A DNA stretch of 64,000 bases from an uncultured Bacteroidales bacterium (GTDB lineage: Bacteria > Bacteroidota > Bacteroidia > Bacteroidales > Bacteroidaceae), in the NCBI GenBank assembly GCA_902786925.1, contig CADAEK010000001.1:62001-126000 (forward strand). The letters run 5' to 3'. The notes under the pieces were generated by a model. That model had not been told where the DNA came from, did no database searches, and worked only from the letters and a program-made list of their open reading frames with translations. The position numbers and the translations under genes were made by a program. Shown here in pieces: positions 29,454 through 46,469 of this stretch (its first letter is position 1; every line of letters starts with the position of its first letter).

Positions 29454-29492
29454 CCTTCGTCAAATCATTCAAAAACCTAAAAATTGAAGCAT

Positions 29493-30131
29493 ATGAAAAA
29501 GTTCTACTTCCTTTTCAACATTATCGCAGTGCTGAGCCTCTGCGCAGTGTTTACCTCATGCACCGAAGACGAGGACGTTGTTGAAGCCAGAGTGCTCTCC
29601 GGTGAATGGACCGGCGATTGGAAGATGTATTACGAAACCAATCGGGGACGCACCTTCTACGCTGATTATACAGACATCGTGTTCTATCGCAGCGGCAGCT
29701 ACACCAACCATGGTTATGGATATCAAGTGGACTTCTATTCCGCAGGGCCCTATACCTCTATCTATAGCCGCTTCACATGGAGCATCGAGAATGGTACTAT
29801 TTACATCGATTATCCCGACGATCACCGCTACGACACAACTATCTATGAATACCACTTGGATGACAGATACTTCTCTGGCAATTTAGGCGACAGCTATCTG
29901 CATTTCAAGATGAGCAAGATTGCCGGCTTCGACTGGAGCTACTACTACACCTATGATGACTACATCTATGACTATTACTACTGGCCTAACTCTTCCTACA
30001 TATGGGATGATGGTGACTACTACTATTGGAGCAAGACACGCAAGAACAAGGGCACCACACCATCCACATCAACAGCAGAAGACAACGAGCCCGAACAAAT
30101 CGTCAAGATTGGCAGCAACCTAGGCAATTAG
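29493..30131 (+). CDS. Tyrosine- and aspartate-rich lipoprotein of unknown function
   Basis: A 212-residue predicted lipoprotein (signal ending VFTSC). After the lipobox comes an acidic start (TEDEDVVEARVLSGEWTGDW) that resembles small lipocalin-like Bacteroidales lipoproteins. Tyr and Asp are then very frequent: residues 145-182 contain runs such as YYYTYDDYIYDYYYW. The Ser/Thr-rich tail carries no clear anchor. I do not recognise a specific family. An in-frame ATG three codons earlier (29484) is possible. Monocistronic, closed by the terminator at 30151-30184. Confidence 0.75.
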   Translation: MKKFYFLFNIIAVLSLCAVFTSCTEDEDVVEARVLSGEWTGDWKMYYETNRGRTFYADYTDIVFYRSGSYTNHGYGYQVDFYSAGPYTSIYSRFTWSIENGTIYIDYPDDHRYDTTIYEYHLDDRYFSGNLGDSYLHFKMSKIAGFDWSYYYTYDDYIYDYYYWPNSSYIWDDGDYYYWSKTRKNKGTTPSTSTAEDNEPEQIVKIGSNLGN

Positions 30132-30150
30132 GCAACGAACATAAATCAAA

Positions 30151-30184
30151 AAGTGAAGGGGGGAAGCAACTTCCTCCTTCACTT
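30151..30184. terminator. Terminator between convergent genes
   Basis: AAGTGAAGG pairs with CCTTCACTT, with an inner GAAG/CTTC stem. It lies just after the Tyr-rich lipoprotein gene and 52 bp beyond the end of the radical SAM gene. Confidence 0.75.
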
Positions 30185-30235
30185 TGTATGTATCTCATCA
30201 AGCGATGGAATTAAAGCGCGCACAAAGGAGCGCCT

Positions 30236-31315
30236 TTATCTTTCACGTTCTAATTTCTTCAGGTGGCAGAGCATCAAGCCGCCCTCCTCATCACGGAGGT
30301 GCATGCCCCCGCCTTCACAATAACGGAACATCTTGCAGTCGGCGCAATCGCCCTTCCGCATCCAGTCACGGTTGCGATAGTTTTGGAATCCATTTTCCCA
30401 CACGTCCCAAAAGCGGTCTTTGTAGATATTCCCTTGGTAATATTTGCCCCGAATGCTGGTGCAGGCCGAGATGCTGCCATCAATCAGCACGGAGGCCACA
30501 CTGATGCCTGCCGCACACTGATAGAGGTGGTCGCGAACCTTACCTTCATACGCACCCAAGAAACCTTCACAGGCAAAACTGGCATGTATCTTTCCTTCCT
30601 GGCGACAGGCAATGATAAAGTCCAACACCTCACGGAGCTTCCCATCAGGCAGTTGCAAGTCAGGATGCAGCTTTGCTCTACCTGCAGGGAAGATGGTGAA
30701 GAGTCGCCACTGGCGCACTCCTGCCTCATAAAGCATATCCTTCAATTGTGGCAGATACTGCACGTTGCGGTTGTTCACACAAGTTACTACATCCCATACC
30801 ACTCGGTTTTGCCCGGCCAAGAGGCGGATAGCACGCAGGGCATTTTTGAAACTGCTCTCATGACCGCGCATCCAGTTGTGGTCTTCCTCATTACCATCGA
30901 GGCTCACGGCCACGCTACGCAGTCCGGCCGCATACAACTGTCTGAAACGTTCCTCCGTGAAGAGCATACCATTGGTGACCATACCCCAAGGATACTCGCG
31001 GCGGTAAAGTGCCCGACCTACTTCCTCGAGGTCGTTTCTCATCAAGGGCTCACCTCCCGACAGAATTACCATCACCTCATGCGGATTCACATGAGGTGTC
31101 ACTTCCTCGTCTATCACACGGAGGAAGTCTTCAGCAGGCATGTCGGGCATCAAGCCTTCCATCTTGCAGTCGCTACCACAATGGCGACACTTCAGGTTGC
31201 AGCGCAACGTGCACTCCCAAAAGAGCTGCCGCAATGGATGCAACTGCTTCATGTTCTGCCGGAGCCGACGTTCGAGTTCAAGACCGACACGCTGTTTCAA
31301 TGATAAAGAGACCAT
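30236..31315 (-). CDS. Radical SAM/SPASM enzyme of the rSAM/lipoprotein system (TIGR04133-like)
   Basis: A 359-residue enzyme that should split S-adenosylmethionine with a [4Fe-4S] cluster to modify a peptide. The cluster motif CNLKCRHC is at residues 39-46 and the SAM-binding GGEP in ILSGGEPLMR. The C-terminal SPASM region carries further cysteines for auxiliary clusters (LIDGSISACTSI, GDCADCKMFRYCEGGG and a final Cys). From memory this matches the Bacteroidales family named for pairing with a lipoprotein. The gene just upstream, 17 bp away and in the same operon, encodes a small lipoprotein that is the likely substrate. The modification is unknown. Confidence 0.88.
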   Translation of the reverse strand: MVSLSLKQRVGLELERRLRQNMKQLHPLRQLFWECTLRCNLKCRHCGSDCKMEGLMPDMPAEDFLRVIDEEVTPHVNPHEVMVILSGGEPLMRNDLEEVGRALYRREYPWGMVTNGMLFTEERFRQLYAAGLRSVAVSLDGNEEDHNWMRGHESSFKNALRAIRLLAGQNRVVWDVVTCVNNRNVQYLPQLKDMLYEAGVRQWRLFTIFPAGRAKLHPDLQLPDGKLREVLDFIIACRQEGKIHASFACEGFLGAYEGKVRDHLYQCAAGISVASVLIDGSISACTSIRGKYYQGNIYKDRFWDVWENGFQNYRNRDWMRKGDCADCKMFRYCEGGGMHLRDEEGGLMLCHLKKLERER

Positions 31316-32715: not shown

Positions 32716-32780
32716 CAACACTAACATAAATCCTATGATAAAGGATTCGGGGAAATATCTTTTATAATCATCTCAACTTG

Positions 32781-33647
32781 ATGCAATTACCAATCGAGAG
32801 CCTTAATTTACAGATGCTGAACGTGGGACTTGCATTCCACAACGGCGACTGGAACTGGCAAAGAGTGTCTTCACCCTTTACCCGAATCTACTGCGTGACC
32901 AAGGGAGAGGCTCGACTACACATTGGTTCGGAGTCCATTCAGCTCCGTCCAGGACACCTCTACATGATTCCTGCCTACACCCTGCATTCGTATGAGTGCG
33001 AAGGCGAGTTCGAGCACTATTACCTGCATGTCTATGAGGGATTCAAGAACGAGACTAACGTACTGGAAATGTACCAGTTTCCCACGGAAGTAAGAGCACA
33101 GGAAAGCGACAGAAGCCTCATGGAGCAGATGGTGGCAGCACACCCTGAGGCCCGATTGCCCGAGAGTGACCCACAGACCTACGACAACGCAAGCATGTTC
33201 ACAGGATATGTGAAGCGTTACAACACCTTGCCTCTATGGGAAAAGATGCGGTTGAGAGGCGCCATTCTGCTATTATTTTCGCGTTTTCTGGAGAAAGCCA
33301 CCCCACGAGTGTGGACAACGGACGAACGCCTGACCAAAGTGCTGGCGCACGTACATAGTCATCTGCATGAGGAAATCAGCGTAGAGACTCTGGCCGAAAT
33401 GGCTTGTGTGACAAAGCCCTACCTCATCAGAGTGTTCAAGCACGAGTTCGGCATCCCCCCTTTGCAATATATTAACAAGAAGAAGATTGAACGTGCACAA
33501 CTGCTGCTCATCACAGAGGACTGGACGGTGAAGGAAGTGGCATGGAAACTGGGATTCGACGACCATTCCTACTTCATCCGCCTTTTCAAGAAACTCATCG
33601 GTACTACTCCCATGGATTACAGACGTAACCTGGATGTGGAAAGGTAA
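32781..33647 (+). CDS. AraC-family transcriptional regulator
   Basis: A 288-residue regulator. The N-terminal cupin-like domain (about residues 25-100; RPGHLYMIPAYTLHSYECEG) should bind a sugar or related effector. The C-terminal double helix-turn-helix (about 185-285) has SVETLAEMACVTKPYLIRVFKHEFG and VKEVAWKLGFDDHSYFIRLFKKLIGTTP. It lies just upstream of the deoxysugar operon on the same strand, so it is the likely activator of that operon. An array of palindromes that can act as a terminator separates them (33713-33781). Confidence 0.9.
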   Translation: MQLPIESLNLQMLNVGLAFHNGDWNWQRVSSPFTRIYCVTKGEARLHIGSESIQLRPGHLYMIPAYTLHSYECEGEFEHYYLHVYEGFKNETNVLEMYQFPTEVRAQESDRSLMEQMVAAHPEARLPESDPQTYDNASMFTGYVKRYNTLPLWEKMRLRGAILLLFSRFLEKATPRVWTTDERLTKVLAHVHSHLHEEISVETLAEMACVTKPYLIRVFKHEFGIPPLQYINKKKIERAQLLLITEDWTVKEVAWKLGFDDHSYFIRLFKKLIGTTPMDYRRNLDVER

Positions 33648-33939: not shown

Positions 33940-34887
33940 ATGCGGTATACAGAACTGGGCAAAACTGGGATGAAAGTATCCCATCTGGCGTTCGGCGCAT
34001 CGTCGCTGGGCAGCGTTTTTCATGAGACAAAAGAGGCTGAAAGCATCCAGGCAGTGGAAGCAGCCATCGAAGGCGGCATCAACCTGATTGATGTAAGTCC
34101 TTATTATGGTCACTACAAGGCCGAAACGGTGCTGGGCAAGGCTTTGAAACTTATTCCACGCGACAAGTACTTCTTAAGCACGAAGGTGGGACGCTATGGC
34201 AAAGACGGAGTGAACACTTGGGATTACTCGGCCAAGCGTGCTACAGAAAGTGTGTATGAGAGCATGGAGCGCTTGAACGTGGATTTCATTGACCTCATCA
34301 ACGTGCACGACATTGAGTTCCAAGCAGCCATGGAAGGTGGCTTGCAGAAGGTTGTGGACGAGACACTCCCCGCCCTTGTGGAACTGAAGAAAAAGGGGGT
34401 GGTGGGACATGTGGGCATCACCGACCTGCAACTGGAGAACCTCAAGTGGGTGATTGAGCATTCGGAAGAAGGCACCGTCGAAAGTGTGCTGAACTTCTGC
34501 CACTACTGCCTGAATGATGACAAGCTGGTGGACTTCCTTGATTTCTTCGAGTCTAAGGGCATTGGCGTCATCAGCGCATCTCCTTTGAGCATGGGGCTGT
34601 TGTCACAACGTGGTGTGCCAGCATGGCATCCTGCGCCAAAGCCTCTGGTAGAGGCCTGCGCCAAAGCTGCGGCATATTGCAATGAGAAGGGTTACCCTAT
34701 TGAGAAACTGGCTATTCAATTTGCCGTCAGCAACGAGCGCATCGCCGGCACCTTGTTCTCATCAGCCAACCCAGAGAACGTGAAGCGCAACATCCAGTGG
34801 GCCAACGAAGAGCCCGACTGGCAATTGGTGAAGGAAGTACAAGAAATCATCGGTCAACAAAAGAGAGTATCATGGGCCAACTCATAA
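33940..34887 (+). CDS. Aldo/keto reductase, likely L-fucose (L-galactose-type) dehydrogenase
   Basis: NAD(P)-dependent oxidoreductase of 315 residues, probably oxidising L-fucose or a similar aldose to its lactone. The family's catalytic tetrad is visible as Asp51, Tyr56 (DVSPYYGH), Lys82 (STKVG) and His123 (NVHD). The start MRYTELGKTGMKVSHLAFGASSLG and the sequence around VGHVGITDLQLENL are close to the L-galactose/L-fucose dehydrogenase branch. It is the first gene of the operon. The next gene overlaps its end by 16 bp, so the two are translationally coupled. Confidence 0.87.
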   Translation: MRYTELGKTGMKVSHLAFGASSLGSVFHETKEAESIQAVEAAIEGGINLIDVSPYYGHYKAETVLGKALKLIPRDKYFLSTKVGRYGKDGVNTWDYSAKRATESVYESMERLNVDFIDLINVHDIEFQAAMEGGLQKVVDETLPALVELKKKGVVGHVGITDLQLENLKWVIEHSEEGTVESVLNFCHYCLNDDKLVDFLDFFESKGIGVISASPLSMGLLSQRGVPAWHPAPKPLVEACAKAAAYCNEKGYPIEKLAIQFAVSNERIAGTLFSSANPENVKRNIQWANEEPDWQLVKEVQEIIGQQKRVSWANS

Positions 34888-35762
34888 TTGATGCACATAC
34901 CCACCTGTGGAAGAAGCAAGACACTTGGGTGGACGGGAAACGGATTCTTTCCATGAAGAATGGCAGGAGCATCTTTATGGACGAGGAAGTACAGATGATG
35001 CCTCCATTCATGATTGACGAGCAGAACTCCGCAGAGGTGCTGCTGTCCAACATGAACTATGCACAGGTTGGCGCGGCTGTGGTGGTACAGGAAGTGATTG
35101 ATGGTAACCAAAACGCTTATCTCACGGAAGTACAACGGCAATACCCAGAGCGTTTCTTCTGCATGGGCATGGCATGGGATCTTGACGAAGCGAAAGCCGT
35201 ACACGCCGCTGGGATGAAGGGCATCGCATTTCCAGGACACCGCATGAAGGAGTCGCTTCTGGGACTAATGCCCGTGTTCAAATACATGGAAGAAGAGAGC
35301 ATGGTGCTGTCCATGTGCCTGGGCGAGGAAGAGAAACAAATTGGCGAGATGAAGGAAGTGATTCAGGAATGTCCTCAACTGAAAGTGGCGATTGGCCATT
35401 TCGGCATGGTGACCACACCTATCTTCAAGAACCAAGTCTTGCTGGCACGTGAAGGAGAAAATGTGATGATTGAATCGGGTGGCATCACCTGGCTCTTCAA
35501 CGCAGAGTTCTACCCCTACCCTTCTGCCATTCGCAGCATCAAGCAGGCAGCCGACTGGGTGGGCATGGACAAGTTGATGTGGGGCAGTGACTACCCCCGC
35601 ACCATTACAGCCATCACCTACAAGATGTCCTACGACTTCATTACCAAGTCGGCAGAACTGGCAGAGAAGGATAAAGCACTCTTTCTCGGTAAGAATGCCG
35701 AACATTTTTATGGGTTCAAGAACTTACCTAAATTACCTTATATAAAAAATATGTCAGAATAA
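34872..35762 (+). CDS. Amidohydrolase-2 family protein, likely L-fuconolactonase
   Basis: A 296-residue TIM-barrel metal-dependent hydrolase. The metal motif DAHTH is at residues 7-11, with further family marks AIGHFG in the middle and WGSDYPRT near the end. In an operon with an L-fucose-type dehydrogenase and FucP it most likely opens the sugar lactone to the aldonate. The ATG at 34872 lies inside the previous gene, with the conserved IDAHTHLW following directly. The open frame reaches further up but only in the overlap. Confidence 0.85.
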   Translation: MGQLIIDAHTHLWKKQDTWVDGKRILSMKNGRSIFMDEEVQMMPPFMIDEQNSAEVLLSNMNYAQVGAAVVVQEVIDGNQNAYLTEVQRQYPERFFCMGMAWDLDEAKAVHAAGMKGIAFPGHRMKESLLGLMPVFKYMEEESMVLSMCLGEEEKQIGEMKEVIQECPQLKVAIGHFGMVTTPIFKNQVLLAREGENVMIESGGITWLFNAEFYPYPSAIRSIKQAADWVGMDKLMWGSDYPRTITAITYKMSYDFITKSAELAEKDKALFLGKNAEHFYGFKNLPKLPYIKNMSE

Positions 35763-35819
35763 TCCGCCCTGAACAAGGCGATTCTATCTCTGGCATCAAC
35801 TGCATAATAGATAACAATC

Positions 35820-37124
35820 ATGAAAAAGCCTTTAGTATCAAAGAAATACCTTTTCACATTCATCCTCATCACGTCGTTGTTTGCCCTGTGGGGCTTTGCC
35901 AACGATATCACGAATCCTATGGTAGCGGCATTCCAGACAGTCATGGAACTGTCGGCAGCCAAAGCATCGCTGATTCAGTTTGCCTTCTACGGAGGCTATG
36001 CCACCATGGCTATTCCTGCCGCACTGTTCATCCGCAGGTATTCATACAAGAGCGGCATCCTTTTAGGTCTGGCGCTTTATGCAATAGGAGCATTCTTGTT
36101 TATTCCTGCTGCAGAGTGGCAAGAGTTCTCGTTCTTCTGCATCTCGCTTTATATCCTCACCTTTGGTTTGGCATTCCTGGAGACAACGGCAAACCCTTTC
36201 ATCCTTTCATTAGGCGAGAAGGAAACCTCAACCCGCCGACTAAACCTTGCACAGGCGTTCAACCCTGTGGGCTCATTGAGTGGCATGGCTGTCGCATCAT
36301 TCATCGTGCTGCCACATCTACTGTCTGACAAGCGTGATGAAGCAGGACAAATCATCTTCCCGTTCCTTTCCGAAGCGGAGAAGGCGGACATCCGTCTGCA
36401 TGACCTTGCTGTCATCCGAGACCCCTATGTGGCCATCGGTCTTGTCGTATTAGCCGTACTCATCGTCATTGCTCTCACCAAGATGCCCAAGACGGAAAGT
36501 GAGGAACAAAAGGCAGCAGGACAGACACACACGGTAAAGAAAACTTTATCGAACCTCTGGCACAACACCATCTATCGCGAAGGCGTATTTGCGCAGGTGT
36601 GCTATGTTGCTGCGCAGATTATGGTGTGGACCTTTATCATCCAATATGCCGATCACCTTGGCATCAATAAGGCCACAGCCCAGTTATACAATATTGTGGC
36701 TATGTCCTTCAATCTGGTAGGCCGCTTCATCGGCACCTTCATCATGCGCTACATCAATACACGCAAGTTACTTACCATCTTTGGCGTGGGAGCGTCAGTG
36801 TGCACACTTGGCGCCATCTGTATTGAAGGCGAGGTGGGCCTTTACAGCCTTGTCTGCATCAGTCTCTTCATGTCCATCATGTTCCCCTCCATCTATGGCA
36901 TTGCTCTGGAGAACGTTGACACGAAGGACACTCACCTTGGTGCCGCATTTCTGGTCATGGCCATTGTGGGCGGTGCGCTCATGCCACCACTACAGGGCTT
37001 AATGATTGACCAAGGCACCATCTGGGGCATGCCAGCTGTGAACATGTCGTTCATGCTTCCTTTGGCTTGCTTCCTCGTGATTATCGTGTATGGATATCGA
37101 GCATACAAACAATTAAACAACTAA
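35820..37124 (+). CDS. fucP: L-fucose:H+ symporter FucP (MFS)
   Basis: Inner-membrane sugar importer of 434 residues with 12 predicted membrane segments. The start (FILITSLFALWGFANDITNPMV) is the classic FucP opening, containing the Asn/Asp pair needed for transport. GLAFLETTANPFILSLG and SLFMSIMFPSIYGIALENV are typical of the FHS family. The neighbours support fucose or a closely related sugar as substrate. The dehydrogenase gene follows after 3 bp. Confidence 0.93.
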   Translation: MKKPLVSKKYLFTFILITSLFALWGFANDITNPMVAAFQTVMELSAAKASLIQFAFYGGYATMAIPAALFIRRYSYKSGILLGLALYAIGAFLFIPAAEWQEFSFFCISLYILTFGLAFLETTANPFILSLGEKETSTRRLNLAQAFNPVGSLSGMAVASFIVLPHLLSDKRDEAGQIIFPFLSEAEKADIRLHDLAVIRDPYVAIGLVVLAVLIVIALTKMPKTESEEQKAAGQTHTVKKTLSNLWHNTIYREGVFAQVCYVAAQIMVWTFIIQYADHLGINKATAQLYNIVAMSFNLVGRFIGTFIMRYINTRKLLTIFGVGASVCTLGAICIEGEVGLYSLVCISLFMSIMFPSIYGIALENVDTKDTHLGAAFLVMAIVGGALMPPLQGLMIDQGTIWGMPAVNMSFMLPLACFLVIIVYGYRAYKQLNN

Positions 37125-37127
37125 ATA

Positions 37128-38147
37128 ATGAAAGCTATTCAGATTAGTCACTCTCAAGAGTTGAACATCATTGAAATGGAGAAGCCAGCAGCATTGAAGG
37201 CTGGCGAAGTGTTGTTGAAACTGGAATATGTAGGTTTCTGCGGTTCCGACCTGAACACCTTCATGGGACGTAACACCATGGCCCTGAATCCTGTCATCCC
37301 AGGACATGAGATTGGTGCTGTCATCGAGGCAGTGGGCAGTGACGTGCCCGCCAACCTTCAAGTAGGCATGGTGGTGACCTGCAATCCCTACACCAACTGC
37401 AACCATTGTGCTTCGTGCCGCAACGGACGAGTAAACGCTTGTCAGCACAACGAGACGCTGGGCGTACAGCGCAATGGTGCCATGAAGGAATACATTGTAA
37501 TGCCGTGGGAGAAGATTATTCCATCCGGCAGTCTCTCCGCCAAGACCAGCGCACTGATTGAACCTATGAGTGTAGGCTTCCACGCGGTAAGCCGTGCACA
37601 GGTGACCGATGTCGACACCGTGATGGTCATCGGATGCGGCATGGTAGGCATGGGTGCCATTGTACGCGCCGTCACTCGTGGTGCCACTGTAATTGCTGCT
37701 GATCTCGACGACGAGAAACTGGCTTTAGCTAAGCAAATGGGCGCAGCATACGCTATCAACACCAAGACGGAAGACGTGCACCAGCGTTTAGCAGACATTA
37801 CTGGAGGCTTTGGACCAGATGTCATCATTGAAGCAGTCGGCAACCCCTTCACTTATCAGATGGCAGTCAATGAGGTGGCCTTCACTGGCCGTGTTGCCTG
37901 CATCGGCTATGCCAAGAGCGACGTCACCTTCCAGACCAAACTTTTCGTACAGAAAGAGCTGGATATCCGTGGCTCGCGCAACGCCACCCCTGAAGACTTC
38001 CGAGGTGTTATCCGCTATCTGGAGCGCGGCACATGCCCTGTAGAAGAACTCATCACCAAGGTTATTCGCCCAGAAGAAGCATTAGAAACGATGCAGTGGT
38101 GGAGCGAGAATCCAGGAAAGGTATTCAGAATTCTAGTGAAGTTTTAA
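37128..38147 (+). CDS. Zinc-dependent alcohol dehydrogenase
   Basis: Medium-chain dehydrogenase of 339 residues. Catalytic zinc ligands are Cys38 (GFCGSD) and His60-Glu61 (PGHE). The structural zinc loop is present (TNCNHCASCRNGRVNAC) and the nucleotide motif is GCGMVGMGA. It resembles L-galactonate 5-dehydrogenase and sorbitol-type enzymes. In this operon it may oxidise the aldonate made by the lactonase, or a keto-deoxy intermediate; which one is inference. It starts 3 bp after fucP. Confidence 0.87.
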   Translation: MKAIQISHSQELNIIEMEKPAALKAGEVLLKLEYVGFCGSDLNTFMGRNTMALNPVIPGHEIGAVIEAVGSDVPANLQVGMVVTCNPYTNCNHCASCRNGRVNACQHNETLGVQRNGAMKEYIVMPWEKIIPSGSLSAKTSALIEPMSVGFHAVSRAQVTDVDTVMVIGCGMVGMGAIVRAVTRGATVIAADLDDEKLALAKQMGAAYAINTKTEDVHQRLADITGGFGPDVIIEAVGNPFTYQMAVNEVAFTGRVACIGYAKSDVTFQTKLFVQKELDIRGSRNATPEDFRGVIRYLERGTCPVEELITKVIRPEEALETMQWWSENPGKVFRILVKF

Positions 38148-38161
38148 ACATCATAAGATAT

Positions 38162-38213
38162 GCCTGAGGCAAGAAGCAAGAGGCACACACGCTTCTCACT
38201 TCTCGCCTCAGGC
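38162..38213 (+). repeat. Intra-operon hairpin
   Basis: GCCTGAGGC (38162-38170) pairs with GCCTCAGGC (38205-38213). Inner segments also pair (AGAAG with CTTCT, then a further partial stem), giving a long hairpin 19 bp before the start of the fusion gene. There is no T-run, so it is more likely an mRNA-stability or processing element than a terminator. Confidence 0.7.
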
Positions 38214-38232
38214 TACATACACCTCACACATT

Positions 38233-39429
38233 ATGAAAGTATTTGTTAGTGGTTGTTACGATCTGCTCCACAGTGGACACGTGGAGTTCTTCCGACAAGC
38301 AAGCCAATATGGTGAACTGTATGTTGGCATTGGCTCTGATGCAACCATCCTCAATTATAAAAACCACAAGACACTGTACCCCGAGCAAGAACGCCTCTTC
38401 ATGGTGAAGAGCATCCGCTACGTGAAGGATGCTTTCATCAATCAAGGCTCTGGCATTATGGACTTCATTCCCACAGTGGAAGCCTTGAAACCAGACCGCT
38501 TTGTGGTGAATGTGGACGGTTCCAGCGAAGAAAAGCGTCGTTTCTGCGAAGAGCACGGCATCGAATACATCGTCCTTGACCGCACTCCTGCAGAGGGACT
38601 AGAAGCACGAAGCAGCACCAGCATTAAGGCCACTCTAGCCCATAAATCAAATGGTGATGCACAACCGGCCAATGGTATCCCCACTCGTCTTGACCTTGCA
38701 GGCACATGGATTGACCAGCCTTACGTAAGCACCTATGCACCAGGATGGGCCATCACCATTTCACTCATGCCTACTTTCGAGATTCGTGAACGATGTGGTC
38801 TTTCTACCTCCACACGCAACCAGATTAAACGCATCTGGCCCGTTCACCTGCCCGACATGGACCCTGAGATGCTGGCTAAGCTGGTCTTCTGCTTTGAGAA
38901 TGACCCCGAACGCACAGACGGCATCATCAGCGGTGCACAAGACGCCATCGGTATCTGCGTACCTGGACTCTGCCGCCACTATTACAACGCTCATTACTGG
39001 CCTGAACGCATTGAGTCATGCACCGACGAACAGGTTCTCCAATGGTTGGAAAGCCATCTGTGCATGGTGCCCATGTTCCCACGACGTCCCGGTTGCTCCG
39101 TAGTGGAAGGCAAGTGTATCAATGAGTCCAATGTCAAGGCGCTGGCACAAGCAGCAGACGACTGCTGGCAAGCGATCCTGAAGACAGACCTCGACGCATT
39201 CGCCACAGCCTATCGAGACTCATTCAAGGCACAGACAACCCTCTTCCCCGCCATGCTTCAACCTGGAGTGAAGGATTACATCGATCGCTACGCTCCCCTG
39301 CCCGATGTCTTGGCATGGAAGATGCCTGGAGCTGGAGGTGGCGGTTACTTAGCCCTCGTAGTAAAAGATGCTAACGCTTTCTGCCAGCAACACGAGGAAG
39401 CCATTCCACTGGTCATCAGAAGGAAGTAA
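38233..39429 (+). CDS. Cytidylyltransferase/GHMP-kinase fusion
   Basis: A 398-residue two-domain protein. Residues 1-140 are a small nucleotidyltransferase of the GCT/RfaE type (GCYDLLHSGHVEFF with the HxGH motif, His13 and His16; closing RSSTSIKATL). Residues 150-398 look like a GHMP sugar kinase: TRLDLAGTWIDQP at the start, GAQDAIG (234-240), and the C-terminal glycine loop KMPGAGGGGYLALV. The kinase ATP loop, normally GLGSSxA, reads GLSTSTRN (189-196). Together this suggests phosphorylation and nucleotide activation, or salvage, of a deoxysugar, arranged differently from the fucose enzyme Fkp. The exact reaction is unknown. Confidence 0.82.
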   Translation: MKVFVSGCYDLLHSGHVEFFRQASQYGELYVGIGSDATILNYKNHKTLYPEQERLFMVKSIRYVKDAFINQGSGIMDFIPTVEALKPDRFVVNVDGSSEEKRRFCEEHGIEYIVLDRTPAEGLEARSSTSIKATLAHKSNGDAQPANGIPTRLDLAGTWIDQPYVSTYAPGWAITISLMPTFEIRERCGLSTSTRNQIKRIWPVHLPDMDPEMLAKLVFCFENDPERTDGIISGAQDAIGICVPGLCRHYYNAHYWPERIESCTDEQVLQWLESHLCMVPMFPRRPGCSVVEGKCINESNVKALAQAADDCWQAILKTDLDAFATAYRDSFKAQTTLFPAMLQPGVKDYIDRYAPLPDVLAWKMPGAGGGGYLALVVKDANAFCQQHEEAIPLVIRRK

Positions 39430-39486: not shown

Positions 39487-39831
39487 ATGAAGACCAAACG
39501 TTACGTACAGACATTAGACCTGCGCGATGATCCGGACATGATTCGAGAATATCGCAAGTGGCACTCCAAAGAGTTCCATTGGAAAGAGGTACGCGACGGC
39601 ATTCGTGCCGTAGGCATCCTTGAGATGGAGATCTACATTCTCGGCACTCGACTCGTGATGGTAGTCGATACCCCCGAAGACTTCAACTGGGACAAGGCGA
39701 TGCAACAACTATCCACCTTGCCACGTCAGGCTGAGTGGGAAGCCTTCGTATCAAAGTTCCAAGGCTGCAATGCTCAAGCCACCAGCAACGAGAAGTGGCA
39801 GATGATGGAAAGAATGTTCTATCTCTATTAA
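39487..39831 (+). CDS. L-rhamnose/L-fucose mutarotase family protein
   Basis: A 114-residue protein of the RhaM (DUF718) family, which interconverts alpha and beta anomers of deoxysugars in the cytosol. Visible family features are TLDLRDDPDMIREYRKWH at the start, RAVGILEMEIYILGTRLVMVVD in the middle and the closing KWQMMERMFYL. Its position between the kinase fusion and the alpha-fucosidase supports an L-fucose-type substrate over rhamnose. Confidence 0.88.
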   Translation: MKTKRYVQTLDLRDDPDMIREYRKWHSKEFHWKEVRDGIRAVGILEMEIYILGTRLVMVVDTPEDFNWDKAMQQLSTLPRQAEWEAFVSKFQGCNAQATSNEKWQMMERMFYLY

Positions 39832-39901: not shown

Positions 39902-41572
39902 ATGACTATCAAACAACTGACTTTAGCTACACTGACACTAGTTGCGGCACACATGTCCGCACAAAATCAGACTTATCAGATTCCCGTTCAAGAGAATGAC
40001 GAGCCCATGGCCACAGGAGCGTTCACACCAGACTGGGAATCATTGAAGACTTACGAAGTGCCCGAATGGTTCCGCGATGCCAAGTTTGGCATCTGGGCAC
40101 ACTGGGGGCCACAATGCGTAGAAGGTAGCGGTGACTGGATGGCACGCAAAATGTATATTGAAGGAGATTACCAGTATAAATATCACCGTGAGCACTATGG
40201 GCATCCCTCGGAAGTAGGCTTCAAGGACATACTGCCCCTTTTCAAGGCCGAGAACTGGACACCCGACGAACTCGTAAAGTTTTACAAGGAAGAATGTGGC
40301 GCTCAATACTTCTTCGCCCTTGGTAACCACCACGACAACTTCGACCTTTGGGACAGCCAATATCAAGAGTGGAACTCCAAGAACATTGGCCCAAAGAAAG
40401 ACATACTTGACGGATGGGCTAAAGCTGCGAAAAAAGCAGGACTGCCTTTCGGCATCTCTTTCCATGCCGACCATTCATGGACATGGTACGAGCCCTCACG
40501 CCGCTTCGACCTCAAAGGCGAAAAGCGAGGAGTGAAATACGACGGATGGCTAACCAAGGAAGACGGCTACAAGCTCAATCCTGACGGCACAGAGAAGTGG
40601 TGGAAAGGTCTTGACCCACAGAAACTCTATGCACAAGAGCACGACTTCTCTGACAACACATGGGACAACGGTGCGATTCATCGCCAGTGGGGATGGCAGA
40701 ATGGTGCGAACCTACCTACACAAGAGTTCGTAACCAACTTCTACAACCGCACGCTCGATGCTATCAACCGCTATAACCCAGACCTTATCTACTTCGATGT
40801 GACCGTCCTGCCCTTCTACCCCATTAGCGATGCAGGCATGAAGATAGCAGCCCACATGTACAACCATAGCGCGGCCACACACAAAGGAAAGAACCAAGCC
40901 GTGGTGTTCGGCAAGATACTAGAAGAGGACATGAAGGACGCCCTCGTATGGGATGTCGAGCGCGGTGCGCCAAACAAGATTATGGAGCGTCCTTGGCAGT
41001 GCTGCAACTGCATCGGAGACTGGCACTACAACACAGGCGTCTATGAGCGCAACGGCTACAAGAATGCACACACCATCGCTAAGCTACTCGTTGACATCGT
41101 CAGCAAGAATGGCAACATGCTTCTCTCCGTTCCCCTCCGTGCCGACGGAACTCCAGACGAGAAGGAGCTTGCTATCATGAAAGAGTTTGGCGCATGGATG
41201 AAAATAAATAGCGAAAGCATCGTGAAGACTCGCCCTTGGAAGATTTTCGGTGAAGGCCCCATTGCCAATGCCAACATCAAAATCAACGACCAAGGCTTCA
41301 ACGATGGACAGTACATCAAGGCTGGAGCCGATGAGATACGTTTCAATCAAACAGAGAAATATCTCTACATCACTCCACTTGCCTGGCCGAAGAACCATCA
41401 AGTGACCATCAAAGCACTTGCTGAAGGTTCTGAGCACTTTGCTTCACCCATCAAGAGCATAGAGCTGCTTGGCTATGGCAAAGTGAAGTTCCAGCGCACC
41501 CAAGATGCCCTCACTGTCACACTGCCCCAACCTATCAACAACATCATGCCGGTGTTGAAAATCAAGAAATAG
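39902..41572 (+). CDS. GH29 alpha-L-fucosidase
   Basis: Exported enzyme of 556 residues (signal peptide to about residue 20, HMSA) that should release L-fucose from glycans. The GH29 opening WFRDAKFGIWAHWGPQCVEG is clear, and FALGNHHDNFDLW follows. The expected catalytic nucleophile is Asp299 in PDLIYFD. The C-terminal beta domain is present (TEKYLYITPLAWP). It is the first of three consecutive hydrolase genes in the operon. Confidence 0.94.
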   Translation: MTIKQLTLATLTLVAAHMSAQNQTYQIPVQENDEPMATGAFTPDWESLKTYEVPEWFRDAKFGIWAHWGPQCVEGSGDWMARKMYIEGDYQYKYHREHYGHPSEVGFKDILPLFKAENWTPDELVKFYKEECGAQYFFALGNHHDNFDLWDSQYQEWNSKNIGPKKDILDGWAKAAKKAGLPFGISFHADHSWTWYEPSRRFDLKGEKRGVKYDGWLTKEDGYKLNPDGTEKWWKGLDPQKLYAQEHDFSDNTWDNGAIHRQWGWQNGANLPTQEFVTNFYNRTLDAINRYNPDLIYFDVTVLPFYPISDAGMKIAAHMYNHSAATHKGKNQAVVFGKILEEDMKDALVWDVERGAPNKIMERPWQCCNCIGDWHYNTGVYERNGYKNAHTIAKLLVDIVSKNGNMLLSVPLRADGTPDEKELAIMKEFGAWMKINSESIVKTRPWKIFGEGPIANANIKINDQGFNDGQYIKAGADEIRFNQTEKYLYITPLAWPKNHQVTIKALAEGSEHFASPIKSIELLGYGKVKFQRTQDALTVTLPQPINNIMPVLKIKK

Positions 41573-41633: not shown

Positions 41634-44012
41634 ATGAAAAGAATACTGACAACTATGCTGATGGCCGCTGCTGTGACAGCGGCCCATGCACAGGAGAAAC
41701 TGTATCACGACGAGTTTCCCCTCGGTGATGTAACCCTATTGGATGGTCCGTTAAAGAAAGCACGCGACCTAAACATCAAGACTCTGTTGCAATACAATTG
41801 CGACCGCCTTCTGGCTCCCTATCGGAAAGAAGCCGGATTAGAGTCCAAAGCTAAGACGTATCCCAACTGGGACGGACTCGACGGCCATGTAGGAGGTCAT
41901 TATCTGACAGCTATGGCGATGAATGCAGCCACAGGCAATGACGAATGCCGACAGCGCATGGAGTATATGATTAGCGAGCTGCAACTATGCGCAGAGGCCA
42001 ATGCCAAGAACCATCCCGGATGGGGCAAAGGCTATGTGGGCGGCATGCCCAATAGCGACCGCATCTGGAGCAATTTCAAAAAAGGAGATTTCGGTGTGTA
42101 CTTCGGTTCGTGGGCACCATTTTACAATCTGCACAAGATGTATGCTGGTCTGCGCGACGCATGGCTTTACTGCGGCAATGAGCAAGCTAAAACCTTATTT
42201 CTGGGTTTCTGTGACTGGGCTATTGACTTGACAGCGAATCTCAGCGATACACAGATGGAACAGATGCTAGGCAATGAGCATGGTGGCATGAACGAAGTAC
42301 TGGCCGATGCCTATGCCATCACCCAAGACACCAAATATCTCAAGGCTGCCACACGCTTCTCGCACCGTCGACTGCTTACCCCCATGTCGCAACGACAAGA
42401 CTGTCTCGACAATATGCATGCCAACACACAAGTGCCCAAAGTGGTGGGATTTGAACGCATCAGTGAGCTCTCCAATGATGAGAACTATCATGAGGCAGCC
42501 AACTTCTTCTGGGACATTGTCACAGGCGAACGCAGTCTCGCATTTGGCGGCAACTCACGCAGAGAGCACTTTCCCAGCAAGGAGGCATGCACAGACTTCA
42601 TCAACGACATTGACGGTCCTGAGAGCTGTAACACCAACAACATGCTGAAACTGACCGAGGACCTGCACCGCCGTAATCCCGAAGCCCGTTATGCAGACTA
42701 CTACGAACTGGCCACCTTCAACCATATCCTTTCTTCACAACACCCCGAGCACGGAGGCTACGTGTACTTTACGCCTGCTCGTCCACGCCACTACCGCAAC
42801 TATTCCGCTCCCAACGAGGCTATGTGGTGCTGTGTAGGTACAGGCATGGAGAACCATGGCAAATACGGACAGTTCATTTACACGCACATGGGTGATGCCC
42901 TTTACGTGAACCTCTTCGTAGCCTCAGAACTGAACTGGAAAGAGAAGAATATCAGTCTGCGTCAAGAGACCTCTTTCCCATACAGCGAATCCAGCCGTAT
43001 TACCATCACCAGCGGTAAGGGCCAGTTCCCCTTGCTGGTGCGCTATCCCAACTGGGTAAAGCCAGGTGAGTTCGCTGTGACAGTGAACGGCAAGCCCGTA
43101 AGCATTATCAGCGGCCCTTCATCCTACGTCACGATTGACCGCAAGTGGAAGAAAGGCGATGTAGTCAACATCACCTTCCCCATGCACAACAGCATCAAGT
43201 ACCTGCCCAACGTACCGCAGTATATTGCGCTGATGCATGGTCCTATCCTCTTAGGCATGAAGACAGGCACAGAAGATTTGGCGCACCTCGTGGCCGACGA
43301 TAGCCGCTTCGGACAGTATGCTGGCGGCAAGAAGCTTCCCGTCAACAAAGCCCCCATTCTCATCAACGATCATATCGATGAGATAGCCGACCAACTAAGC
43401 CCCATCGCAGGCAAACCCTTGCATTTTACTCTCAACACAAAGATGGAGAATGCAACCTCCAACGAGTTGCAACCCTTCTTCGAAATACATGATTCCCGTT
43501 ACATGATTTACTGGCTTGCCCTCTCCGAAAGCAGCTACAAGAGCTATCTACAGCAACTGGAAAAAGAAGAGCAGGAGCGCCAAGCCCTCGAAGCCCGTAC
43601 CATAGACAAAGTGCAGCCCGGCGAACAGCAACCCGAGACTGACCACCGCATGGAGACCGACCAGTCTCAAACAGGCAACACTAACGACGTATTCTGGCGT
43701 GATGCCAGCAATGGGCACTATTTCAGCTACCTCATGCAGACTGCTGGACGCACCGACCTCTCGCTCCGTCTGAAATTCTGGGGAGTTGGCGAATGGAAGA
43801 GCCATGAGTTCGACGTCTTCATCGACGACCAGTTACTCACCTCCATCAACAATACTGGCAAATACAGAATTTCCGAGTTCAAATACGAGACTTTCAGCAT
43901 CCCTGCAAGCATGCTGAAAGGCAAACAGCAGATTCGAGTAAAGTTCGTAGCAAAGCCACACAAACAAATCGGAGAAATCTATGGCGTACGGTTGGTAAGC
44001 CCTGCAAAATAA
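41634..44012 (+). CDS. GH127-family glycoside hydrolase
   Basis: Exported 792-residue enzyme (signal peptide to HAQ, residue 20) of the beta-L-arabinofuranosidase family (formerly DUF1680). The barrel begins at FPLGDVTLLDGPLKKARDLN. The zinc-site residues known from the family are all visible: Glu330 and Cys332 (ESC) and the Cys399-Cys400 pair (WCCVGTG). Because GH127 includes several specificities, the substrate here is not certain. A C-terminal beta domain (about 690-790, after a Gln/Glu-rich linker) resembles the extra module in many GH127 proteins. Confidence 0.92.
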   Translation: MKRILTTMLMAAAVTAAHAQEKLYHDEFPLGDVTLLDGPLKKARDLNIKTLLQYNCDRLLAPYRKEAGLESKAKTYPNWDGLDGHVGGHYLTAMAMNAATGNDECRQRMEYMISELQLCAEANAKNHPGWGKGYVGGMPNSDRIWSNFKKGDFGVYFGSWAPFYNLHKMYAGLRDAWLYCGNEQAKTLFLGFCDWAIDLTANLSDTQMEQMLGNEHGGMNEVLADAYAITQDTKYLKAATRFSHRRLLTPMSQRQDCLDNMHANTQVPKVVGFERISELSNDENYHEAANFFWDIVTGERSLAFGGNSRREHFPSKEACTDFINDIDGPESCNTNNMLKLTEDLHRRNPEARYADYYELATFNHILSSQHPEHGGYVYFTPARPRHYRNYSAPNEAMWCCVGTGMENHGKYGQFIYTHMGDALYVNLFVASELNWKEKNISLRQETSFPYSESSRITITSGKGQFPLLVRYPNWVKPGEFAVTVNGKPVSIISGPSSYVTIDRKWKKGDVVNITFPMHNSIKYLPNVPQYIALMHGPILLGMKTGTEDLAHLVADDSRFGQYAGGKKLPVNKAPILINDHIDEIADQLSPIAGKPLHFTLNTKMENATSNELQPFFEIHDSRYMIYWLALSESSYKSYLQQLEKEEQERQALEARTIDKVQPGEQQPETDHRMETDQSQTGNTNDVFWRDASNGHYFSYLMQTAGRTDLSLRLKFWGVGEWKSHEFDVFIDDQLLTSINNTGKYRISEFKYETFSIPASMLKGKQQIRVKFVAKPHKQIGEIYGVRLVSPAK

Positions 44013-44126
44013 GGAATGAGTAAATATTTCTCCACGTCATCCAGCTTTTCACTCGAAAGGCTATCACTATGACACCCAAATCTCACCCCACTAATAAAAA
44101 CAGAACACCTAGTACATTGATAATCT

Positions 44127-46469
44127 ATGATTAAAAAAAGCATTATTCTGTTCATGGCCCTCACAACCGCCATGACAATTCAAGCACAGAGAAAAACGTC
44201 GCCTGCTACTCAGACAAACAAAACTCTATTTGACAGCAGCTGGCAGTTCACACAACAAGGGAAAACCATCACAGTCGATTTGCCCCACGATTGGGACATC
44301 TACACTGCATCCGACCCTTCCACAGGAGCCACTGGCACAGGCGGAGGCTGGTTTCAAGGTGGCAAAGGAGAATATAAGAAGGCTTTCAAGACCCCTGCGG
44401 CAGAACTGGTGAAACTCCACTTTGAAGGCGTCTATCAACACGCAGAAGTGTTTATCAACGGGCAGAAGGCAGGACAGCACGCATACGGATACACCCCCTT
44501 CACCATCGATGCCACACCCTATTTGCGCAAGGACAAGCGCCTTAACGAAGTGCTTGTTAAGGTGGATAACAGCCTGCAGCCCAACTGCCGTTGGTACTCT
44601 GGTTCAGGCATCTATCGCCACGTATGGCTCGAGACAATGCCAGCCCTACACATTGCCGAGAACGGTGTATTCGTGACAACCCCAGAAATCTCTGCCGATA
44701 AAGCACAAGTCAAGGTAGAAGTAGCCGTTGCCAACGAGTCCGACCACGACAGAAACGCCACAGTCGTAGTGGGTGGCAGCAAGCTGCAAGTTGCAGTTCC
44801 TGCCCATCAAACCCAAACCGTAACGACAACCTATGACATACAAAGACCCCAATTGTGGTCGCCTGACAACCCATACCTCTACGAGACACGAGTAGAGTTG
44901 AATGAGGCAGGTACCATCACCGACCAGCAACGAGTACGGTTCGGTGTCCGCTCCTTCTCTTTCGATGCACAGCGAGGCTTCCTGCTCAATGGAAAACCAC
45001 TGCCCATCAACGGTGCGTGCGTACACCATGACGACGGCGTGCTCGGAGCCATGGCTTTCGATGCAGCAGAGATACGGAAGGTGCGACAGATGAAAGATGC
45101 AGGTTTCAACCTCATCCGCACCTCACACAACCCCACTACCCGTGCGTTCCTCGACGCTTGTGACTCCATCGGCATGCTCGTTATCGGTGAAGCCTTCGAC
45201 GGTTGGCGTTCTGCCAAGTTGGCTCACGACTATTCCACCGTCATCGACTCATGCTACCGACAGGACCTCCATACAATGGTGCTTCGCGACCGCAACCATC
45301 CCAGCATCATCTCGTGGAGCATCGGTAACGAAGTTATCGAACGTAAGGATATCCGCGTCGTCACCACAGCTCGCTTGATGAAGAAGGCTATCCTTGAGCT
45401 GGACACTACACGTCCCGTCACTGAGGCACTCTGCGCATGGGACCGCGACTGGGAAATCTACGACCCACATGCCGAAGTACTCGACGTAGTAGGCTACAAC
45501 TACATGATTCACAAGCATGCCAGCGACCATGCACGCGACCCTCAGCGCGTCATGTGGCAGACAGAGAGCTATCCTCGCCATGCCTTTGGCAACTGGGCCA
45601 TCGTGCACGACTATCCCTATGTGGTAGGCGACATCGTATGGACAGGTCTCGACTACCTCGGTGAATCAGGCATTGGCCGTTACTACTATGAGGGCGAGCG
45701 CCCTGGAGAATCATACGTTGAAGGCGGACAGCCCGACTGGCATGGAGCCTACTGTGGCGATGTGGACATCACAGGCTGGCGCAAGCCTATCAGCCACTAC
45801 CGCGAGACGCTGTGGAAAGACTCTGCGCCCCTTTACATGGCAGTGAAAGAGCCTGATGGCTATCGAGGCAAGATACACGAAACCTCATGGAGCGTATGGC
45901 CCACATGGGAAAGCTGGAACTGGAAAGGATGGGAAGGCAAGCCCATCGAAGTGGAAGTGTACACAAAGGCGCCAGAAGTGAAGCTCTATCTGAACAACAA
46001 GCTCGTCGGAACAAAAGCTGTTGGCCGCAACACAGAGTTCAAGGCAGTCTTCACTCTGCCTTATGAACCAGGCACCCTGCGTGCTGAAGCTGACGGCAAG
46101 AGCGTCACACTCAGCACAGCAGGAGAACCTGCAAGACTGCGCCTCACAGCCGACCGCTCCACCATCGCTGCAAATGGTCAGGACCTAGCATACATCACCG
46201 TTGAAGTGACAGACAGCGAAGGTCGCCTCTGCCCCGATGCCGCCATTCCATGCGAGGCATTAGTCAATGGACAAGGCAAACTCATGGCCTTTGCCTCAGC
46301 CGACCTTAAAGACCGTGAGCCTTCCACCTCCGCAAGAGTCACCACTTGGAAAGGCCGTGCTCTGTTAGTCGTACGCAGCACAGAGAAAGGTGGACGCATG
46401 CAAGTTGCCATCAAGAGCAGCCTGCCCACCTCTACCCTCACTATCTCTTCTGCCAAGCTCTCCAAATAA
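44127..46469 (+). CDS. GH2 beta-galactosidase-like hydrolase
   Basis: Exported enzyme of 780 residues (signal peptide to about residue 20). A sugar-binding domain (about 25-180) and an Ig-like domain come before the catalytic barrel. The general acid/base is Glu402 in SWSIGNEV and the nucleophile Glu480 in WQTES. A DUF4982-like and a C-terminal Ig-like domain follow. It most resembles Bacteroidales GH2 beta-galactosidases, and together with the fucosidase it may trim fucosylated galactosides such as those on xyloglucan or host glycans. Last gene of the operon; a terminator follows at 46507-46546. Confidence 0.93.
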   Translation: MIKKSIILFMALTTAMTIQAQRKTSPATQTNKTLFDSSWQFTQQGKTITVDLPHDWDIYTASDPSTGATGTGGGWFQGGKGEYKKAFKTPAAELVKLHFEGVYQHAEVFINGQKAGQHAYGYTPFTIDATPYLRKDKRLNEVLVKVDNSLQPNCRWYSGSGIYRHVWLETMPALHIAENGVFVTTPEISADKAQVKVEVAVANESDHDRNATVVVGGSKLQVAVPAHQTQTVTTTYDIQRPQLWSPDNPYLYETRVELNEAGTITDQQRVRFGVRSFSFDAQRGFLLNGKPLPINGACVHHDDGVLGAMAFDAAEIRKVRQMKDAGFNLIRTSHNPTTRAFLDACDSIGMLVIGEAFDGWRSAKLAHDYSTVIDSCYRQDLHTMVLRDRNHPSIISWSIGNEVIERKDIRVVTTARLMKKAILELDTTRPVTEALCAWDRDWEIYDPHAEVLDVVGYNYMIHKHASDHARDPQRVMWQTESYPRHAFGNWAIVHDYPYVVGDIVWTGLDYLGESGIGRYYYEGERPGESYVEGGQPDWHGAYCGDVDITGWRKPISHYRETLWKDSAPLYMAVKEPDGYRGKIHETSWSVWPTWESWNWKGWEGKPIEVEVYTKAPEVKLYLNNKLVGTKAVGRNTEFKAVFTLPYEPGTLRAEADGKSVTLSTAGEPARLRLTADRSTIAANGQDLAYITVEVTDSEGRLCPDAAIPCEALVNGQGKLMAFASADLKDREPSTSARVTTWKGRALLVVRSTEKGGRMQVAIKSSLPTSTLTISSAKLSK

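Follow-up and report, generated by a model that had tools for sequence, protein, structure and literature searches.

Why should a gene cluster for the oxidation of L-fucose carry a protein that joins a nucleotidyltransferase to a sugar kinase-like domain? The question is raised by the window, by which we mean the whole 64,000-nucleotide stretch of DNA analysed here, taken from an uncultured Bacteroidales bacterium. An earlier note, made from the sequence alone, had described such a fusion with an altered ATP loop and had suggested that it may activate an unexpected intermediate or make a new CDP- or ADP-linked sugar. We analysed the fusion protein, its family and its gene neighbourhoods, and we compared it with FKP, which is described as the enzyme by which Bacteroides and Parabacteroides are known to salvage fucose (PMC8698959).

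Operon of the fusion gene

The cluster was headed by an AraC-type regulator (positions 32778-33647, plus strand; PF12833, 1.4e-22). Behind it, all on the plus strand, we found an aldo/keto reductase resembling L-galactose dehydrogenase and probably acting as an L-fucose dehydrogenase (33940-34887; PF00248, 2.1e-48; PDB entry 7lh6, L-galactose dehydrogenase, 7.2e-154), an amidohydrolase that is a probable lactonase with a putative start (34872-35762; PF04909, 2.3e-39), the L-fucose:H+ symporter FucP (35820-37124; TIGR00885, 1.4e-165), an RspB-like zinc alcohol dehydrogenase (37128-38147; PF00107, 1.1e-28; PDB entry 4ilk, 2.6e-44), the fusion gene, a mutarotase of the rhaM family (39487-39831; PF05336, 1.7e-25) and a GH29 alpha-L-fucosidase (39902-41572; PF01120, 4.9e-81). 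An enolase-superfamily (fuconate) dehydratase of PF13378 was not found in the window's genome, which is about 92% complete; since the oxidative fucose genes at 33940-38147 are present without it, the lower pathway may be unusual.

Several other features were observed in and around the cluster. Glycoside hydrolases of families GH127 and GH2 lay downstream of the fucosidase on the same strand (41634-46469). A strong hairpin (38162-38213; -34.9 kcal/mol, z -8.8) was located between the zinc alcohol dehydrogenase and fusion genes; it was single-copy in the genome when searched with an 18-base pattern allowing up to two mismatches, and the closest relative (L003) seemingly has a hairpin at the same spot with a different stem sequence, as judged by eye. 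Upstream of the regulator, a radical SAM/SPASM protein (29484-31315; TIGR04133, 9.1e-173) was found beside a lipoprotein-like open frame on the opposite strand.

Overall architecture of the fusion protein

The fusion gene is a single open frame on the plus strand (38233-39429) that encodes 398 residues. Its AlphaFold2 model (mean pLDDT 89.1, pTM 0.67; weak in the linker 133-146 only) revealed two known folds, at about residues 1-117 and 135-398, when compared by VIA. Combined with domain matches and conservation, the model places an HxGH nucleotidyltransferase domain at residues 1-135 (38233-38637), with HSGH at 13-16, R117 and RSSTS at 126-130, and a compact GHMP kinase domain at about residues 147-398 (38671-39426). 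The fusion of a nucleotidyltransferase ahead of a GHMP kinase, as the earlier note had it, is therefore real, as is the difference in transferase family from FKP, since the fusion protein had no match to PF07959. The domain order, which the note had called the reverse of that in FKP, turned out to be the same: residues 304-383 of the fusion matched positions 864-941 of the 974 in the FKP model, which places the FKP kinase at the C-terminus, and in an FKP protein that we retrieved, PF07959 spanned 67-422 and was followed by two GHMP domains (656-732 and 812-891). The FKP paper likewise describes a C-terminal GHMP kinase.

The family alignment comprised 123 rows, about 10 of which are repeat copies of the same locus. 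At two loci (L118 and L123), a mutarotase domain was fused ahead of the other two, which gives a natural mutarotase-transferase-kinase triple fusion.

Structure and relatives of the transferase half

Residues 5-98 matched PF01467 (CTP_transf_like) with an E-value of 1e-12 and 48.8 bits against a cut-off of 21. The predicted model of residues 1-117 overlaid on glycerol-3-phosphate cytidylyltransferase (2b7l) with a Z-score of 17.4 and an rmsd of 1.7 Å between 111 residues at 34% identity, and HldC was also among the matches of this half. The HxGH signature was present, with H13 and H16 each found in 122 of the 123 rows, and H13, S14, G15, H16, R117, S127 and T129 were conserved in 121-123 rows. 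Models of known sugar-activating enzymes were matched below their cut-offs: TIGR02199 (HldE/RfaE) gave 4.6e-11 and 42.7 bits against 181.5, the HldE model 26.2 bits against 521, and the fusion protein as a whole scored 33.1 bits against 721 with the FKP model NF009948. The closest kin of this half use CTP or ATP rather than GTP.

Structure of the kinase half and its altered loop

The kinase half did not reach the Pfam GHMP cut-off (PF08544, 14.4 bits against 21). In a PDB search, it matched FKP (5.6e-6) and a heptokinase (0.0024), and a 43-row family profile gave E-values of roughly 1e-18 to 1e-19 for WcbL, HddA and FKP (1.1e-18 for the FKP entry 9iip). Upon superposition by VIA, the predicted model had the GHMP superfamily fold; the best match was the WcbL heptokinase (4usk; Z-score 24.0, 3.1 Å, 246 residues, 19% identity), and the fucokinase part of FKP (9iip) gave a Z-score of 22.3 and an rmsd of 2.9 Å between 232 residues at 23% identity.

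The GHMP motifs and the catalytic aspartate were conserved across the family, namely motif 1, the QD pair and GAGGGGY, with the ATP loop modified to GLSTSTR. As the earlier note had observed, the loop in the window reads GLSTSTRN in place of GLGSSxA (residues 189-196, 38797-38820, plus strand) and the remaining kinase motifs are intact. R187, G189, S193, R195 and W202 were invariant in all 123 rows, and positions 191, 192 and 194 were limited to S/A, T/S and T/S, respectively. Because the altered loop is invariant family-wide, it is not a lesion but a conserved loop proper to this compact kinase. A second difference had been overlooked in the note: the whole family lacks most of the stretch that usually links motif 1 to the ATP loop, so that D161 of motif 1 and G189 of the loop are 28 residues apart, whereas D601 and the phosphate-binding G717 of FKP are separated by 116. 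The stretch that is missing here normally contributes to adenine binding, and the use of ATP is therefore less certain.

A sister family (L112-L116), about 28-29% identical, had QSGH instead of HSGH, the loop GLSTSTA and the same motif-1 tryptophan. All five of its rows had alanine at position 195, and its protein at L112 passed the Pfam GHMP cut-off with 37.7 bits. At some loci, the sister-family genes adjoined genes for a glycosyltransferase, Wzi or a Kdo transferase.

Predicted fucose pocket

In the structure of B. fragilis FKP, W599 is reported to stack on C4-C5-C6 of fucose 1-phosphate; the C3 hydroxyl is held by D601 and T602 and the C4 hydroxyl by D601 and Q761, while D762, the proposed general base, contacts the C2 hydroxyl and R592 aids catalysis (PMC11982464). 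The same report gives a more than 3000-fold loss for fucose in W599A and D601A (PMC11982464). HMMER aligned the FKP segments RSPVRIDMAGGWTDTPP and GGGWQDQ to the fusion family. Motif 1 of the fusion protein, PTRLDLAGTWIDQP (residues 150-163; 38680-38721, plus strand), thereby supplied R152, W159, D161 and Q162 at the positions of FKP R592, W599, D601 and T602, and Q236-D237 (38938-38943, plus strand) corresponded to Q761-D762. All six residues were invariant in the 123 rows. E222, found in 122 rows, is probably the counterpart of FKP E751, judging by its spacing.

The heptokinases in the same PDB search had AGGGTD or AGGGSD, with glycine at the position of W599. The fusion protein has AGTWID and thus departs from the GGG(T/S)D of HddA and WcbL. 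As predicted from these alignments, the substrate pocket of the fusion kinase is that of a fucokinase.

Gene neighbourhoods across the family

The earlier note had suggested a survey of the gene's neighbours, which we carried out by tblastn within 6 kb at 119 distinct loci; L112 of the sister family, three repeat loci and the short duplicates of loci retrieved again at greater length were left out, and neither the sister loci L113-L116 nor the fragment loci L119 and L120 entered the count of carriers. Genes for fucose uptake or release or for GDP-fucose synthesis were found at 100 of the 119 loci. An uptake or release gene was present at 83 loci (FucP at 66, a rhaM-type mutarotase at 66, GH29 at 20 and FucU at 2) and a GDP-fucose gene at 33 (Gmd at 23, Fcl at 21 and ManC-like at 12, these identities being confirmed by HMM on examples only), with both groups at 16. 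The scored fucose neighbours were almost all on the strand of the fusion gene. At the other 19 loci, some of which are short contigs, no scored neighbour lay within 6 kb. Oxidative genes were rare near the fusion and belonged almost entirely to the window's clade: the aldo/keto reductase was found at 13 loci, the amidohydrolase at 14 and the zinc alcohol dehydrogenase at 16.

Mutual exclusion with FKP

Taking a PF07959 score above the cut-off as the sign of FKP, we found no genome with both genes in any of five samples, which overlap in part and include many incomplete genomes. Among 221 Bacteroidaceae genomes, 61 had the fusion and 87 had FKP, where 24 genomes with both were expected (P = 4e-17; all P values ignore phylogeny). 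Within one genus of 139 genomes, the counts were 68 and 45, with 22 expected to have both (P = 2e-18). The 14 genomes of the window's genus were divided into 7 with the fusion and 4 with FKP (P = 0.035), and 295 genomes of the order gave 37 and 24 (hypergeometric P = 0.035). Carriers were few in a phylum sample of 247 genomes: four full-length fusions, one transferase-only protein and two FKPs. Within one genus, assembly gaps, if random, are insufficient on their own to cause this pattern.

The two genes also occupied the same place. In one genus, manC-gmd-fcl-FKP at one locus (L142) corresponded to gmd-fcl-fusion-mutarotase at another (L151), and the fusion was found elsewhere as manC-fusion-gmd-fcl (L167, L168) and fcl-gmd-fusion (L155). 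FKP adjoined FucP at two loci of the window's genus (L136, L137), and FKP loci had scored partners within 6 kb less often, at 7 of 15. The window's own genome contained gmd (7.8e-151), and FKP (PF07959) was not found in it. The simplest account is non-orthologous replacement, in which the fusion would take the place of FKP species by species.

Proposed function and alternative readings

We propose, with a probability of roughly 0.78, that the fusion is an L-fucose 1-kinase/NDP-fucose synthase that stands in for FKP in salvage, most likely to GDP-L-fucose. In this scheme, the GH29 fucosidase would free L-fucose, FucP would import it and the mutarotase would equilibrate its anomers. The GHMP domain would then phosphorylate C1, presumably with ATP, and the HxGH domain would convert the resulting beta-L-fucose 1-phosphate and an NTP to NDP-L-fucose, most likely GDP-L-fucose, and pyrophosphate. 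Salvaged GDP-L-fucose would join the pool made de novo by ManC, Gmd and Fcl and would be used for the bacterium's own surface glycans. A split of imported fucose between burning and building would explain why the kinase sits inside an oxidative operon. GTP is favoured as the nucleotide because FKP and the neighbouring genes make GDP-fucose and because all known fucosyltransferases, according to a 2025 paper, take GDP-fucose. In keeping with the earlier note, the fusion looks like an active kinase with an activating transferase; an unexpected intermediate of oxidative breakdown is not supported as its substrate, given that oxidative genes occur at a minority of loci and that FKP, the enzyme with which the fusion alternates, acts on free L-fucose.

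With transferases that use CTP or ATP as its nearest kin, the HxGH domain may instead make CDP- or ADP-L-fucose: the same salvage enzyme would supply it to dedicated transferases. The close fit to glycerol-3-phosphate cytidylyltransferase and the match to HldC count for such a product, as does the use of ATP by HldE-type HxGH domains to activate a sugar 1-phosphate. The alternation with GDP-fucose-making FKP, the place of the fusion in ManC-Gmd-Fcl operons, which lead to GDP-L-fucose, and the GDP-fucose use of known fucosyltransferases argue against it, and we consider it unlikely; the terms CDP-fucose and ADP-fucose were absent from the literature searched. The existence of two parallel donors, one of them CDP- or ADP-L-fucose from salvage and the other GDP-fucose made de novo, is doubtful to a similar degree. 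It is quite improbable that the kinase is a fucokinase whose guanylyl transfer is done by a ManC-like neighbour, with the HxGH domain regulatory or devoted to another substrate. A ManC-like gene lay directly upstream at several of the 12 loci that had one, but 107 loci had none nearby, the same gene also stood beside FKP (L140-L143, L150), which has no need of it for that step, and the HxGH residues are conserved in 121-123 of the 123 rows.

Three further readings were rejected. A role in catabolism, with the kinase of this oxidative operon phosphorylating fucose, fuconate or an intermediate further down the pathway, would suit the position of the gene between those for the zinc alcohol dehydrogenase and the mutarotase and the lack of a dehydratase match in the genome; the scarcity of oxidative partners across the 119 loci makes it very improbable. 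A heptose-type enzyme, in which a WcbL/HddA-like kinase and an HldC-like transferase would yield an NDP-heptose, agrees with WcbL as the best fold match and with HldC among the transferase matches, but Trp159 in place of the heptokinase glycine, the fucose uptake and release neighbours and the exclusion with FKP reduce it to a slender chance. A dead kinase might be suspected from a loop unlike GLGSSxA and from the long missing stretch in the shortened N-lobe. The earlier note had named a clearly dead ATP pocket as one result that would overturn its view; a dead pocket would drift, whereas the loop, the catalytic residues (Arg and Asp) and those of the fucose pocket were invariant in 123 of 123 rows, and this reading is the hardest of all to credit.

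Comparison with known systems

The fusion protein and B. fragilis FKP (9iip, 9iit, 5yys) share a transferase-first, GHMP kinase-last order, the predicted fucose-binding and catalytic residues and the company of FucP, ManC-like, Gmd and Fcl genes, and the two are found in sister species within the same genera. They differ in the transferase, which is of the HxGH type rather than PF07959, in length (398 residues against about 950 in FKP), in the GLSTSTR loop and in the absence of most of the pre-loop stretch from the fusion kinase. The HddA/WcbL heptokinases (3k85, 4usk) share the GHMP fold but have glycine instead of tryptophan in motif 1, different neighbours and, in the matched chains, no transferase domain. 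HldE/RfaE, the heptose kinase/adenylyltransferase, resembles the fusion in having a sugar kinase and an HxGH transferase in one chain; its kinase, unlike that of the fusion, is ribokinase-type and N-terminal. Glycerol-3-phosphate cytidylyltransferase (2b7l, 1coz), which shares the fold of residues 1-117, is a single-domain enzyme that uses glycerol 3-phosphate and CTP.

A 2025 survey of FKP evolution relied on HMMs for fucokinase, GDP-fucose pyrophosphorylase and FKP sequences, and a term search of the paper gave no occurrence of Prevotella, cytidyl- or GHMP (PMC12732313). No description of the fusion was found in the literature searched, which mostly excluded subscription papers. The fusion is very probably a previously unrecognised enzyme of many gut and rumen Bacteroidales that does a known job with a transferase half unrelated to that of FKP. 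A B. fragilis mutant without GDP-fucose synthesis was reported to be outcompeted in the mouse gut (PMC8698959), and T. forsythia and other species in which FKP is absent have been assumed to be without salvage. If the proposal is correct, a second salvage enzyme would redraw the map of which species salvage fucose and would make available a small enzyme for the production of activated fucose; it would also add GTP to the nucleotides of HxGH sugar transferases or reveal a new nucleotide sugar.

Besides the 61 of 221 sampled Bacteroidaceae, the fusion gene was present in Segatella copri isolates (L064, L072) and elsewhere in Bacteroidota. Some genomes (G011, G176, G443 and G687) carried two copies of it.
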